From: a virus
DNA: 36,332 nt
Direction: 5' to 3' (one strand)
IMG/VR virus record: IMGVR_UViG_3300032086_000473
Coordinates: 1 to 36,332 of that record
The notes beneath the pieces were generated by a model. It did not search any database. It was not told where the DNA came from and was given only the letters and a program-made list of their open reading frames with translations. How positions within the stretch are numbered: the first letter of the stretch is position 1; each line of letters starts with the position of its first letter. Below are positions 785-29,230 of this stretch, in pieces. Position numbers and translations under genes: made by a program.

Positions 785-960
785 TACACTTCCTCCCTAT
801 CAGGCTTGACACAAACTATTGTATCATCCGCTCTGAACTCGTATCCAAGTTCTGCGGCAACCCGATTTATTGCTCTGTTAAGTTCGTTCCATTGACGACC
901 ATTGCCTTGATGGTCGTCCAATGTCTTGTGAATAGTTTTTAGACTTTCGATGATGTCCAT
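784..960 (-). CDS. Hypothetical 58-aa protein
   Basis: 58 residues beginning MDIIESLKTIHKTLDDHQGNGRQ. I use the ATG at 960 because it overlaps the upstream stop as TAATG and has a GGAGGA ribosome site; a longer form would start at 975. An N-terminal amphipathic helix is followed by 'NRAINRVAAELGYEFR' and a short polar C-terminus. No family is recognised. The stop overlaps the start of the next gene by one base, as elsewhere in this operon. Confidence 0.6.
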   Translation of the reverse strand: MDIIESLKTIHKTLDDHQGNGRQWNELNRAINRVAAELGYEFRADDTIVCVKPDREEV

Positions 961-1484
961 TACACTGTCCTCCAAATGTCTAAGGCATCCGCTTCGGATA
1001 GATCATTCAGAATAGTAACGTCTGAATTTTCTTTCTTGATCATCTCTTTCAAAAGCCAATCAGGTTTACCCTTCGGTTTGTTCCACTGATAAACCTTGAG
1101 TTCCCCATCCCTTTTGATCTGAGCAACGACACATCTGTTCAAAAGTCTTTTCAATTCTTTCTTATCCAAGAAATTAGTTACTTGCTCACCGCACCACAAT
1201 TCAAAACTCTGAGACAAACCTTCTGGCAAATAATCGTACTTGCCAACATCAAGGTTGGGTAATGATTTGAAATACTCTTCTATCTCATCATACTTCTTGC
1301 GCCATGCACCTTGAACCTTGGTCAATGGTGATTTGTCATGAGGGTGTACATAGTCACATCCACCGTGACCATCGTTGCTGACATCGGCAAATGGTTTGCC
1401 GTCCAGATATACGACTGCGGTGTAGCAATAAGTTTCCTGACTGCCAGATGCAAAGTGCTTGATTGATTTCATTTCTAAGTTCAT
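960..1484 (-). CDS. Conserved phage hypothetical protein, 174 aa
   Basis: First gene of the leftward operon. The start at 1484 is chosen over 1526 because GAAAGGAAATAACA sits directly before it, the same initiation cassette used in the 2.8-5.5 kb operon. Residues about 8-45 (HFASGSQETYCYTAVVYLDG followed by a Gly/His/Asp-rich stretch with HGGCDYVHPH) look like a compact domain, with His, Asp and Cys that could bind metal. The C-terminal half is Lys-rich and helical. I do not recognise a catalytic family. Proteins with this kind of N-terminus occur in other environmental phages as far as I recall, without assigned function. Confidence 0.7.
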   Translation of the reverse strand: MNLEMKSIKHFASGSQETYCYTAVVYLDGKPFADVSNDGHGGCDYVHPHDKSPLTKVQGAWRKKYDEIEEYFKSLPNLDVGKYDYLPEGLSQSFELWCGEQVTNFLDKKELKRLLNRCVVAQIKRDGELKVYQWNKPKGKPDWLLKEMIKKENSDVTILNDLSEADALDIWRTV

Positions 1485-1517
1485 TGTTATTTCCTTTCGT
1501 AATTGTTGAATACTTGT

Positions 1518-1545
1518 AGTCTGCATATATCCAGACTGATGTCAA
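1518..1545 (-). promoter_or_regulatory. Possible leftward promoter with inverted repeat
   Basis: On the reverse strand a consensus -35 hexamer TTGACA lies at 1545-1540, 56 bases upstream of the 1484 start. The -10 region is weak at any normal spacing. An inverted repeat AGTCTG-N8-CAGACT (1518-1523 and 1532-1537) occupies the spacer and would suit a repressor or activator site. The promoter call is an inference. Confidence 0.35.
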
Positions 1546-1557
1546 CAAAAAAGTTGT

Positions 1558-1795
1558 GTTTACATTGTATACGGTATTTTTCCAGATTTTTTTTGTTCAG
1601 CCCAAAAGTAAAAAAATATCGTGTAAATCTTGTAAACAGCGTAAACGAGTGCACTATAGGTGGGGTCGGCTGTTTACACCTGTTTACAAAACGGCCTTTT
1701 TGTTTACACTTCGTGCCGCTTGTTTCCACAAGATGTTTGTTGTATCGTTGTGGGAATTGCAGAAATGCGGAAAAATAGCGTAAACAAGCGTAAAC
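1558..1795. repeat. Iteron-like array of GTTTACA/TGTAAAC heptamers
   Basis: The gene-free stretch 1485-1799 holds about ten copies of one heptamer in both orientations. GTTTACA occurs at 1558, 1672, 1682 and 1702, with a GTTTCCA variant at 1722. TGTAAAC/CGTAAAC occurs at 1631, 1640, 1779 and 1789, with a TGTAAAT variant at 1622. Neighbouring copies sit 9, 10 or 20 bases apart, so one protein face could contact them all. The last copy ends five bases before the terminase small-subunit ATG, where a ribosome site would normally be. Such arrays act as multimeric binding sites: a packaging (pac/cos) site, a replication origin or an operator. Confidence 0.75.
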
Positions 1796-1799
1796 AGAA

Positions 1800-2372
1800 A
1801 TGGCATCTATAAAGAAGAAAATTGAGGCCGAACATGATCGGCAATTGACCAACCGCCAGATGACTTTTGCACAGAAAATTGTCGAAGGTATTTACTCAAA
1901 TGCAGAGTGCGCCAGACTTGCAGGTTTTAAACCTGAGTTGGCAGTAGAACATGCTTCGCGTTTTTTAAACGGCAGAGACTATCCTCACGTTGTGGAGTAC
2001 ATCGAAGAACTCAGACAAGAACGTGAACGTAGGTATGGTGTGTCAACTATCGGACAGTTGGAACGCTTGTACAAATTATCTCTTGGTGCAGAAGAAGCAG
2101 GGCAGTTTTCTGCTGCTATCAATGCGGAGAAAATACGATCAGCTTTGGGTGGTCTGACCATCGATAGACGAGAGACAATCAATACCATTGATCAGTTATC
2201 CAGAGATGAGATTACATCAAGACTTGCGGCATTACAGAAACAATATCCGCAAGCATTTCAAATAGAGGCAGACTACAAGGATATTACACCAGATGAGCAG
2301 AGGTCCAGAGGCGAACTTTTGGAGCACGATCCGCCACAATCTACCGAAGAAGTGCTTCGCAACTCGGATTGA
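1800..2372 (+). CDS. terS: Terminase small subunit
   Basis: 190 residues. Residues about 14-45 (RQLTNRQMTFAQKIVEGIYS then NAECARLAGF) match the N-terminal helix-turn-helix of Terminase_2-type small subunits, which bind the packaging site and hand DNA to the large subunit. A central helical region (about 65-115) would serve oligomerisation. The acidic C-terminus would contact the motor. The start at 1800 lacks a normal ribosome site because a heptamer repeat occupies that place, so expression may be low or controlled by protein binding there. It is separated from the large subunit by about 8.5 kb. The last 80 bases are shared, in another frame, with the downstream nuclease gene. Confidence 0.75.
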   Translation: MASIKKKIEAEHDRQLTNRQMTFAQKIVEGIYSNAECARLAGFKPELAVEHASRFLNGRDYPHVVEYIEELRQERERRYGVSTIGQLERLYKLSLGAEEAGQFSAAINAEKIRSALGGLTIDRRETINTIDQLSRDEITSRLAALQKQYPQAFQIEADYKDITPDEQRSRGELLEHDPPQSTEEVLRNSD

Positions 2373-5884: not shown

Positions 5885-6538
5885 ATGTCCGAGAACAACA
5901 GGCACAGGCGGGTAGCTTCGCAGATGGCGGAGCGGTATGGTGTTGATCCAGAGATATTTAATAGGTTGATTGCGAAGGAGAGCAGTTGGAATCCTAATGC
6001 GAAGGGATCTGCGGGTGAGGTTGGATATACGCAGATTATGGCTGCAACGGGTATGAATCCTGGGTTTGGTGTAACGCCAATCAAGGATCGGAGTGATCCT
6101 GTTGACAACTTACGGTTTGGTGCGGAGTATTTGGGTGCATTGATTGAGTATTATAACGGGGATTATACCAAGGCATTGATGGCGTATAACGGTGGTGCGG
6201 GGAACGTGGATCAAGATAAGTCGTCTAGTGATGCAAAGAAGTACGCTGCGGAGGTATTGAGTGGGAAGGAAGTTCAGACGAAACCTGAACCACGGCCCAC
6301 GGGTCTTGTACCGCAGGCGGAGGACAAGAAGGGGATGGATGCGATTAGCAAGGGCATTGAGGAGTTGTTAGCTCCGAAGAAGAAGTTGCCATTGAAAGCT
6401 CCACCTCGTATTCAGAGATTTGGAAGAAGTGGTCGGATGAGTCCGTTGAGTGGGGCGGGGATTCCGGGTTTAGGAAACATTAAGAGGTATTCGACCCCTG
6501 GTGGTATAGAGAGTTTGTATCGTGCTACAAAAGATTGA
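5885..6538 (+). CDS. Lytic transglycosylase (SLT-type), virion-associated
   Basis: 217 residues. The N-terminal domain (about 6-125) is a soluble lytic transglycosylase fold: KESSWNP with catalytic Glu32, GYTQIM (47-52) and AYNGG (100-104), in the usual order and spacing. These enzymes cut the glycan strand of peptidoglycan. The C-terminal ~90 residues are basic, Pro/Lys/Arg-rich and probably disordered. There is no signal peptide, and the gene sits at the head of the structural module beside a probable ejection protein, so it likely acts from the virion during DNA entry. AGGAG lies nine bases before the ATG. Lysine codons are almost all AAG here, unlike the central part of the 1,286-aa gene. 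Confidence 0.85.
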   Translation: MSENNRHRRVASQMAERYGVDPEIFNRLIAKESSWNPNAKGSAGEVGYTQIMAATGMNPGFGVTPIKDRSDPVDNLRFGAEYLGALIEYYNGDYTKALMAYNGGAGNVDQDKSSSDAKKYAAEVLSGKEVQTKPEPRPTGLVPQAEDKKGMDAISKGIEELLAPKKKLPLKAPPRIQRFGRSGRMSPLSGAGIPGLGNIKRYSTPGGIESLYRATKD

Positions 6539-25758: not shown

Positions 25759-26409
25759 ATGAGCTTTACATACGCACAACTTAAAACAGCGATTCAAGAT
25801 TATACGGAAAACACAGAAACTTCTTTTGTGACTAATCTTCCCATATTTATACGACAAGCTGAAGAACGTATTTTAAAAAATGTTCAACTTAGCTTGTTTC
25901 GTAAAAATGTGACGGCAACAACAACAGCAACAAACAAATATTTAACTTGCCCTTCTGATTTTTTAGCACCGTTTTCTTTAAGTTTAGCGGGAACAGATGG
26001 CGATAAGTTTTTTGTTGACTTTAAAGATCCAAGTTTTTTACAGACGTATACTCCTGACTCTACTACAACAGGTGCTCCAAAATACTATGCACAGTTTGAT
26101 GTAGATCACTTTTTATTTGCGCCTACACCAGATGCTGCATATACTGCTGAACTTCATTATTTTTATCGTCCTGCCAGTTTGACTGCCGGAGTAGATAGCG
26201 GAACTACTTGGTTAAGTGAAAACGCTGAAATGGCTATGTTGTATGGATCATTGATCGAAGCATACATATACATGAAAGGTGAACAAGATGTGATGGCAAT
26301 GTATGCCTCAAGATTTCAAGAAGCAATTACAGGTGTAAAAATGCTTGGAGAAGCTAAAGAGACTACAGATGAATATCGCACAGGAAAAGTAATAAGGGTT
26401 AAACAATAA
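25759..26409 (+). CDS. Phage adaptor protein (DUF6682-like)
   Basis: 216 residues. MSFTYAQLKTAIQDYTENTE, then LPIFIRQAEERILKNVQLSL, a beta middle, and C-terminal helices (MAMLYGSLIEAYIYMKGEQD, YASRFQEAITGVKML). This is the plan of phage adaptor/neck proteins related to those that join portal and tail. It is a second member of that general kind in the window, after the 23974 gene. Family name is given with moderate certainty. The TAATG overlap couples it to the next gene. Confidence 0.72.
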   Translation: MSFTYAQLKTAIQDYTENTETSFVTNLPIFIRQAEERILKNVQLSLFRKNVTATTTATNKYLTCPSDFLAPFSLSLAGTDGDKFFVDFKDPSFLQTYTPDSTTTGAPKYYAQFDVDHFLFAPTPDAAYTAELHYFYRPASLTAGVDSGTTWLSENAEMAMLYGSLIEAYIYMKGEQDVMAMYASRFQEAITGVKMLGEAKETTDEYRTGKVIRVKQ

Positions 26410-26705
26410 TGTTTAAGATAGATATAAATGTACCACAGTATGAATCTTTAGTAGAGGTTAACACTACAGAGAATCGTGGTTTTACCCCAGATGAACTTGC
26501 GGAACAGTGTGTCCAAAAGATCATATCGGTCTCCGATAGCACCCACCCCGGTGTTAGAGACCAAGCTCGTGCCTTTTCAAGGCACATTGAAAAGCTTGTT
26601 GAATATTATATGAGACAGGCGATTCGCAGTGACCGCACTACAGTGTGTAATGCAATAAAAGATGCGGGACATCCCGAACTGGCTGAACTTATAAGGAGAC
26701 TCTAA
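26409..26705 (+). CDS. Hypothetical helical protein, 98 aa
   Basis: Helix-rich, containing ENRGFTPDELAEQCVQKIIS, 'HPGVRDQARAFSRHIEKLVE' and a C-terminal 'AIKDAGHPELAELIRRL'. It recurs next to neck genes in environmental phages, as far as I recall, without known function; it may be a tail assembly factor. The start overlaps the previous stop (TAATG). Confidence 0.65.
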   Translation: MFKIDINVPQYESLVEVNTTENRGFTPDELAEQCVQKIISVSDSTHPGVRDQARAFSRHIEKLVEYYMRQAIRSDRTTVCNAIKDAGHPELAELIRRL

Positions 26706-26706
26706 C

Positions 26707-27183
26707 ATGGCCTTTACTGGAAACTTTATGTGTACTTCTTTCAAAGAAGAACTCTTGAAAGGACAACACGATTTTACTAACGGACAAGATACTTTTTGTA
26801 TCGCTTTGTACGATAACAATGCCTCTTTTACTGCGGCGACTTCCGCAGCAGTTTTTGGTTCAGGCAACAATGAAGTTGCTACATCAGGCACGTATACTTC
26901 AGGTGGTCCATCTGGTGCTACATCTACAAACTCGTTGACAAATGTGACTCCAACTTCTTCAGGCACAACAGCATTTACTGATTTTGCAGATAAAACATTT
27001 ACGTCCGCAACAATTACTGCTCGTGGTGCGTTAATTTACAACACTCAAACAGCGGGTGGAACAGATACGACAGACACTGTTGTCGTTCTTGACTTTGGTT
27101 CTGATAAAACATCTACGGCAGGTGATTTCCAAATCGCTTTCCCCGCAGCAGCTGCTTCTACTGCAATTATTAGAATCGCTTAA
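26707..27183 (+). CDS. Structural protein, beta-rich, 158 aa
   Basis: Begins MAFTGNFMCTSFKEELLKGQ, HDFTNGQDTFCIALYDNNAS; the rest is Thr/Ser/Gly/Ala-rich with 'ITARGALIYNTQTAGGTDTT' and ends 'AAASTAIIRIA'. The pattern 'SFKxELLxGxHDF...FKIALY' is characteristic of a common phage virion protein preceding fibre genes. Ribosome site AAGGAGA. Probably a tail or fibre-attachment protein. Confidence 0.7.
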   Translation: MAFTGNFMCTSFKEELLKGQHDFTNGQDTFCIALYDNNASFTAATSAAVFGSGNNEVATSGTYTSGGPSGATSTNSLTNVTPTSSGTTAFTDFADKTFTSATITARGALIYNTQTAGGTDTTDTVVVLDFGSDKTSTAGDFQIAFPAAAASTAIIRIA

Positions 27184-27208
27184 TTGTAATAGATAGGAGA
27201 TTGTTGCG

Positions 27209-29230
27209 ATGGCACTCGTTGTAAAAGATCGTGTAAAAGAGACCACAGCAACTACAGGAACTGGAACTCTGACATTGGCGGGAGCCGTGGCAGGGTTCCA
27301 AACCTTTACGTCTGTTCTCTCTAATGGAGATACTACTTACTATGGTATATTTGAAAGTAGTACAGGAGAGTTTGAGGTTGGGCTTGGTACGTTTACTTCG
27401 TCTGGCACAACGCTTGCTCGAACAACAATCTTAGAAAGCTCTAATTCAGGAAGCGCCATAAACTTAACGGCGGGGGCTGCGGATGTATTTATTACGCAAC
27501 CTGCTGAAAAGGCGGTGTATCTTGATGGGAGTGGTTATATTGCAACGGCGGATGGTAGAAATCTTACTAACGTGGACGCAGACACAGTAGACAGTTTACA
27601 TGCAAGTAGCTTTATAAGAAGTGATGCTAATGACACCTCTAGTGGCACTATTGCATTTGGTACAGGCACATTAGACCCTGATAGTTACACTAGTTATTCT
27701 GGCGGTTTTGGCACGATTGCGGATGGTAGCGGTTGGTCTGCTAGAGGTGTATTTCTTCACGGCGGGGCCACGGGACAAGCCGCAGCTTTAGCTATTTCAG
27801 GAAATACAACTTACTTTGGATCGCAAAACGGCACAGCAGCTAATACTATGGCTACCATCCTTTCGGTTCCACATAGTACAAATGTAGTAAACTTCTCGCA
27901 AACCCCGACAGTTGGTACAAATGTAATCTGGAACGCAGGCAACGATGGCTCTGGCTCTGGCCTAGATGCTGATACATTAGATGGTGTGCAAGGCTCTAGC
28001 TATTTGCGTAGTGATGCTAACGATACAGCCACAGGTGAACTTACGTTTAATTCAAAACTAGATATTGCTAACGGTGTATACCTTGGTTGGGGTGGTGGTT
28101 CTGGTAGACCTTCTATAACTGGAAATAAAAGCAGTAGTCTTATGCAGTTTTATACAGGTGGAGCTGAAAGGTTACATATTGATAACAGTGGTATTGACGT
28201 AACTGGCACTATTACGGCTGACTCGCTGACTGTTGATGACATTACAATAAACGGCTCAACTATATCTGATGGTGCTGATCTTACTGTAGATGTTGGTGGA
28301 AACATCGTTTTAGATGCTGATGGTGGGGGAATTTATTTCAAAGATGCAGGAACAACTATAGGTATTTTACAGAGTGATAGTGGAGATTTTAAAATATCAT
28401 CCTCTGTATCTGATAAAGACATTAAATTTACAGGTAATGATGGTGGCTCAACTATAACTGCCCTTACCCTTGATATGTCAGATGCAGGTGCTGCTACTTT
28501 TAACAATAAAGCACTTATAAAACATAACAACAATAATTATGACGATGGCCTTACATTACGCTCTACTTTGGATTGGGGCTACGGTGCTTCTTTATCTTTT
28601 GATGCGGTTACTTCAAGTGGCGGTTCGAATGGCACAGTTGGTAAAATACAAAGCAGGTGGCAATCGCAAGGTAATCATGCACTAGATTTTTATGCTTTTG
28701 TGAGTAATTCATTAGTTCAAAAAGCTAGGTTGGATGCAGACGGCCTTGATGTTACTGGATCGGTTACGGCTGATAATATTTATCTTGCCAGTAGTTTAAT
28801 ACATGAAGGTGATACTGATACCAAACTTGAGTTTGGCACTAATTACATTAATTTAATCACAGGTAACAGCACGTCCGCAACACTAAACAGTTCTGGTATT
28901 TTTGTTAATGACGGCTCACTAGCAGAAGATTATGATGCACTATCAGGAACAACTCCAACCTGTAACGTAGATAATGGCGGTATGTTCAGCCTAACTATGA
29001 CAGGCAATACCACCTTTACATTTAGTGGAGCATCTAGTGGGTATATTCAAGGTTTTGTATTACAGCTAACAGGCAACGGTTCAACAGTTACATATCCTAC
29101 ATCAGTAGATTGGTCAGGGGGTACTGCGCCAGACGCCCCTGCTTCTGGTGAAACCGATATACTTGTTTTTATTACAAGAGACGGTGGCACAACTTGGTAT
29201 GGCGCATTGGCGATTGACGCCGCAGCATAG
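27209..29230 (+). CDS. Tail fibre protein, 673 aa
   Basis: The N-terminal module (MALVVKDRVKETTATTGTGT, about 1-105) is a common phage tail-attachment domain. The shaft contains two units of a fibre repeat, DTVDSLHASSFIRSDANDT (125-143) and DTLDGVQGSSYLRSDANDT (255-273), each followed by SG/TG-x-(I/L)-x-F. The long Ser/Asp/Gly/Thr beta middle is typical of beta-helical or triple-spiral shafts. The C-terminal ~65 residues (TYPTSVDWSGGTAPDAPASG) are homologous to the C-terminus of the 30114 protein. It likely binds the host surface. Confidence 0.8.
   Translation: MALVVKDRVKETTATTGTGTLTLAGAVAGFQTFTSVLSNGDTTYYGIFESSTGEFEVGLGTFTSSGTTLARTTILESSNSGSAINLTAGAADVFITQPAEKAVYLDGSGYIATADGRNLTNVDADTVDSLHASSFIRSDANDTSSGTIAFGTGTLDPDSYTSYSGGFGTIADGSGWSARGVFLHGGATGQAAALAISGNTTYFGSQNGTAANTMATILSVPHSTNVVNFSQTPTVGTNVIWNAGNDGSGSGLDADTLDGVQGSSYLRSDANDTATGELTFNSKLDIANGVYLGWGGGSGRPSITGNKSSSLMQFYTGGAERLHIDNSGIDVTGTITADSLTVDDITINGSTISDGADLTVDVGGNIVLDADGGGIYFKDAGTTIGILQSDSGDFKISSSVSDKDIKFTGNDGGSTITALTLDMSDAGAATFNNKALIKHNNNNYDDGLTLRSTLDWGYGASLSFDAVTSSGGSNGTVGKIQSRWQSQGNHALDFYAFVSNSLVQKARLDADGLDVTGSVTADNIYLASSLIHEGDTDTKLEFGTNYINLITGNSTSATLNSSGIFVNDGSLAEDYDALSGTTPTCNVDNGGMFSLTMTGNTTFTFSGASSGYIQGFVLQLTGNGSTVTYPTSVDWSGGTAPDAPASGETDILVFITRDGGTTWYGALAIDAAA

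Follow-up and report, generated by a model that had tools for sequence, protein, structure and literature searches.

In the satellite phage P4, a winged-helix domain of the alpha primase binds the repeats of the replication origin, according to the account in PMC4234260, which cites Yeo et al. 2002. An archaeo-eukaryotic-type primase (AEP) domain joined to a C-terminal winged-helix DNA-binding domain is present in ORF904 of pRN1 and in other AEP Prim-Pols (PMC4234260; for PolpTN2, PMC5862659), and the AEP primase-polymerase of phage NrS-1 needs a recognition sequence of 8 nt, located at a possible origin (PMC7102993). The SCCmec Cch2 and SaPI Rep origins are short iterons located beside the replication genes and recognised by the C-terminal domain of the replication protein (PMC7581432). 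In the PLE satellites of Vibrio cholerae the origins and the DNA-binding domains of the RepA initiators covary and have been swapped, and an origin-directed phage nuclease may drive this switching (PMC8263062). Here we describe a repeat array in a viral DNA of 36,332 nucleotides (IMG/VR record IMGVR_UViG_3300032086_000473; this whole stretch is called the window). Comparison of sequences among relatives makes it very probable that the array represents the iterons of a replication origin, read by the AEP primase of the phage itself through a C-terminal winged helix.

The array lies between a leftward gene (start at 1526 or 1487) and terS, and all of its copies are collected in Table 1. Eight exact GTAAAC sites were counted in 1527-1799, while 5,000 dinucleotide shuffles averaged 0.43 and never exceeded 4, and a search of the whole window revealed no further GTAAAC cluster outside the array. 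The repeats are short and non-coding and keep a phase of roughly one turn of the helix, as is characteristic of iteron origins, with steps of 9 bp (1623-1632-1641), 10 bp (1672-1682 and 1780-1790) and 20 bp (1682-1702-1722). The original prediction had described about ten copies at such steps in the gene-free region before terS, which proved right with eight exact and three degenerate copies, but it did not stress that this region separates diverging operons. Its heptamer, GTTTACA/TGTAAAC, strictly applies to only five of the array sites, the remaining exact ones matching the hexamer GTAAAC only, and over the whole window this heptamer is mildly enriched (its count was reached in 7 of 100 shuffles). 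It was also correct that the array abuts terS; the last site ends at 1795 and leaves four bases before the ATG at 1800. That an iteron stands in place of the ribosome site is true of the window and its nearest relatives (L002-L005), but many other relatives have a spacer with a GGAG/GAGG-like sequence between the array and terS.

Table 1. Features of the array region and the adjoining genes, in window coordinates
Feature	Position	Strand	Basis or remark
First gene of the leftward operon, phrog_17767, unknown function	960..1526	-	alternative start 1487
Divergent intergenic region, 273 bp, with the whole array inside; proposed replication origin	1527..1799	.	count against shuffles; place kept in relatives
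Left pair of leftward iterons, GTTTAC 1558 and degenerate GTATAC 1567, 9-bp step	1558..1572	-	sequence
A/T-rich tract with T- and A-runs; candidate DNA-unwinding element	1574..1620	.	sequence; putative function
Three rightward iterons at 9-bp steps: degenerate GTAAAT 1623, GTAAAC 1632, GTAAAC 1641	1623..1646	+	
TATAG element between the converging iteron sets; candidate promoter -10	1651..1660	.	sequence comparison; putative promoter
Leftward iterons in 10-bp phase: 1672, 1682, 1702 and degenerate 1722	1672..1727	-	same order in relatives
Two rightward iterons, 10-bp step, beside the terS start	1780..1795	+	sequence, site count
terS (terminase small subunit), adjoins the array	1800..2372	+	Terminase_2 E 2.2e-4 (below Pfam cut-off); phrog_51 E 6e-10
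Exact GTAAAC/GTTTAC sites	1558(-), 1632(+), 1641(+), 1672(-), 1682(-), 1702(-), 1780(+), 1790(+)		
Degenerate array copies	GTATAC 1567, GTAAAT 1623, GTTTCC 1722		read from the sequence; same phasing as exact sites

Relatives were collected by a TerS scan of a viral collection, which found 482, and 80 of these were kept. Nearly all of the 80 carry an array at the same place, with a lineage-specific core in which all copies differ together. The first relatives showed the cores GTAAAC, GTAATC, GTAAATC and GTACTC, and the loci fetched later added GTCCTC, GTATCC, GTCATC, GTCCTA, GTAATA, GTTCTC and GTACTA. The conservation of the heptamers in related phages, proposed as a check of the original prediction, was confirmed for the position of the array but not for the exact heptamer. 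The finer layout recurs as well: two exact copies occupy the place of the left pair in L060, L061 and L066, three exact copies at 9-bp steps stand in L060, L228 and others where the window has the iterons of 1623-1646, most relatives have a T-tract at the spot equivalent to 1574-1620, and the counterpart of the TATAG element is TTATTTATATAG or CACTATAG. Mixed arrays were also observed, with GTACTC, GTAATC and GTCCTC-like copies upstream of terS in L199 and with GTAAAC and GTAATC in L182 and L016; these have possibly been caught in the middle of a switch.

The longest relative (G001) encodes a primase, a UvrD-like helicase and a DNA polymerase in its leftward arm and the virion genes in its rightward arm; its terL (25922-27386, L086) is in two reading frames, by a frameshift, an intron or an assembly error. 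In each of six contigs of 56-58 kb, the principal cluster of the core is the array itself. G024 has a small second cluster of its core 4.5 kb from the array, and in G028 (L381) a second cluster of six GTAAAC copies stands close to the main array. In the GC-skew analysis that had been suggested for an origin, the cumulative minimum fell on the array in two of the six contigs, G024 and G026, and was no more than about 3.7 kb away from it in the other four; the sign change is there, but it is weak as origin evidence because it coincides with the change in gene direction.

The gene of the AEP-type primase is found about 9.5 kb from the array, and its C-terminal winged helix contains the residue that covaries with the core. 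The contig of the window ends before this gene, so the rule described here is that of the relatives. Residue numbers refer to the primase of G002, in which the wing residue that goes with core position 5 is 476; for the primase of the window's phage the rule predicts Ala or Ser there. When the primases of G002 and G003 were compared, the changes were clustered in the C-terminal part, at residues 476-485. In the 34 genomes with both features, a set enlarged by three further scans, core position 5 and the wing residue agree without exception: T with Asn (16/16), A with Ala or Ser (13/13) and C with His (5/5). The rule had been derived from 11 genomes, and it then fitted G012, which had not yet been inspected, and the genomes added later; two later lineages outside the 34, L362 and L368, also obey it. 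L271 was excluded from this count; upstream of terS it has a core in the form TGACTCA/TGACGCA, its wing residue is Asn, and the N-terminal part of its primase is nearly identical to that of L270, the array of which is GTAAAC. With A at core position 3, nearly all genomes have Thr as residue 486, and with C or T it is Lys, Asn or Ile; residue 474 largely tracks core position 4, these two codes being less complete than that of position 5.

On a tree built from primase alignment columns 1-430, with the wing and the C-terminal domain left out, position 5 switched independently nine times, and the wing residue switched along with it in all nine cases (sign test, p 0.0039). Among the 6,235-6,237 columns of 28 reference proteins, TerS, the helicases and the DNA polymerase included, the wing column was the only perfect predictor of position 5 (1.00, leave-one-out); the next-best column outside it reached 0.71-0.75, depending on the exclusion rule. 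Since the genomes are related, a tree-structured null was simulated with labels evolved on the tree, and some column was perfect in 3 of 200 runs, about 1.5% scan-wide. Chance becomes much less likely once three further points are considered: the rule was later confirmed in new clades, the column belongs to a DNA-binding wing, and there are the two pairs of near-twin genomes, L225/L228 and G002/G003. In the first of these pairs (GTATCC in L225, GTCATC in L228) TerS is 99.5% identical, and of 11 differences between the primases 7 are located in wing residues 469-481.

The predicted structure of the primase is compatible with such a reading. AlphaFold models of the relatives' primases give a winged-helix C-terminal domain whose wing strands span 472-478 and 484-493; the first strand carries residues 474 and 476, which alternate along it and so point to one face, and the second carries residue 486. 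The N-terminal domain is of AEP type (Pfam AEP-TOTE, E 8e-15; Foldseek to CAPP Prim-Pol, E 3e-9). A fold search with the isolated C-terminal domain gave no significant match, the best one being a PadR winged helix (E 0.07).

On this basis we propose that the C-terminal winged helix binds each GT-NNN-CA repeat: its conserved HTH helix would grip the flanks, which are constant, and the three variable bases would be read by the wing through residues 474, 476 and 486. Several primases, assembled on one helical face beside the A/T-rich tract, might open the DNA and recruit the separately encoded UvrD-like helicase, and replication would then be primed where the leftward early and rightward late operons meet. 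Specificity would evolve by a joint switch of all repeats and the wing.

The most serious alternative is that the array is an operator of two diverging promoters, bound by the primase or by another regulator, and that replication starts elsewhere. The position between diverging operons and the TATA-like element between the converging repeats speak for it, but the covarying protein is a replication primase and not a dedicated repressor, and the genomes of cultured Acinetobacter and Klebsiella phages are organised differently, with arrays upstream of the primase gene; we therefore regard this explanation as unlikely. An operator role for the diverging promoters in parallel with the origin role is possible. 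Origin and operator functions can coexist, as they do in many iteron plasmids.

Small terminase subunits often bind DNA near their own gene. The original prediction favoured a pac/cos site or operator recognised by TerS, which might also repress terS, and the four-base distance from the terS start is in line with this, as is a second array in Acinetobacter phage SH-Ab 15497, located close to the terS end of its genome. The covariation analysis nevertheless rejected TerS as the reader, and this explanation has become very improbable: G002 and G003 share one TerS sequence (100% identity over 193 residues) in spite of different cores (GTAATC and GTAAATC), the TerS recognition helix differs between L002 and L004 over the same array, and the best TerS column predicted position 5 with an accuracy of 0.62 against 1.00 for the primase wing column. 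Among close relatives the TerS recognition helix is highly variable (KPELAVEHASRLL, SPEVAPKQASVLL, SVDAANVFASKLL and others; window 1800-2372 and terS of L002-L081), and it varies without following the array; the DNA target of TerS may be elsewhere. Two other candidate readers were also rejected. The left neighbour gene differs between L004 and L005, which have the same array type, and encodes similar proteins in L009 and L017, which differ in array type; the UvrD-like helicase is divergent between G002 and G003, but its best column reached 0.67. A chance or composition effect, suggested by the A/T-richness of GTAAAC and the mild window-wide enrichment of the heptamer, is refuted by the conserved position with its concerted sequence change, besides the local clustering, and can practically be dismissed. 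The iteron replication origin, which the original prediction had named last, is the reading that the evidence supports through the covariation with the primase wing.

In cultured phages with 28-30% identical primases, repeat arrays, often at 8-bp steps, immediately precede the primase gene. These phages include the Acinetobacter phages SH-Ab 15497, DMU1 and others, Klebsiella phage VLCpiS6a, Salmonella phage PMBT28, Pseudomonas phage PSA28 and Providencia phage Kokobel2. Second arrays away from the primase were observed in SH-Ab 15497 (L340; 43039-43236, just before the terS end of the circular record) and in VLCpiS6a (L341; 1677-1893). HTVC023P has an array of TAGGAAA repeats upstream of terS; in HTVC027P no clear array was found, and with 7-mers no convincing one in MW202510 and DSL-LC04, the primases of which are 37-38% identical. 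Cores vary in the Acinetobacter group too, where the simple wing code does not hold, because Bhz9 and Bhz20 share the same wing and differ in core.

For the large group of uncultured marine relatives of the Pelagibacter phages HTVC023P and HTVC027P, the origin reading points to the replication start and to the responsible protein. It also provides a natural set of matched pairs, about a dozen variants of DNA site and wing, in which protein-DNA specificity can be followed as it evolves one readable step at a time, and an AEP-type enzyme, present in cultured Acinetobacter, Klebsiella, Salmonella, Pseudomonas and Providencia phages, joins the repeat-reading primases. As to the cause of the repeated switching, which the origin reading makes testable, we can offer a conjecture. 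The array and the wing might form a rapidly switching code of origin identity, simple enough to be read off the sequence (residues 486, 474 and 476 for bases 3, 4 and 5, respectively), so that the primases of relatives, or origin-directed nucleases or satellites, miss each other's origins, with competition in co-infection as the driving force. This idea is tentative, and the conjecture as a whole is rather less probable than not.

Our literature searches, the coverage of which was incomplete, found no report of this origin system. The SCCmec Cch2 and SaPI Rep origins are similar in their short iterons and in having the C-terminal domain of a replication protein as the reader, but there the reader is a helicase and not a primase. 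In PLE, too, the origin iterons covary with the DNA-binding domain of the initiator; it differs in the RepA_N initiator domain, in semi-palindromic iterons of about 30 bp and in the exchange of whole domains instead of single wing residues. NrS-1 likewise has a phage AEP enzyme tied to a short sequence at a possible origin, but its genome contains two copies of the sequence with no phased array, and the C-terminal region of the enzyme is ring-shaped. ORF904 of pRN1 and its kin combine AEP and a C-terminal winged helix, as predicted for the primase described here, whereas the pRN1 origin is without iterons and has a stem-loop (PMC4234260). The P4 alpha protein likewise carries a winged-helix DNA-binding domain, here predicted by AlphaFold, within the primase polypeptide; it is, however, a Toprim-type primase with its own unwinding activity, in contrast to the AEP-type primase and separate UvrD-like helicase of the marine phages, in which, furthermore, the repeat specificity varies between close relatives. 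The best reading of this locus is an iteron origin with a logic like that of P4 alpha, realised with a different primase and with switchable specificity.
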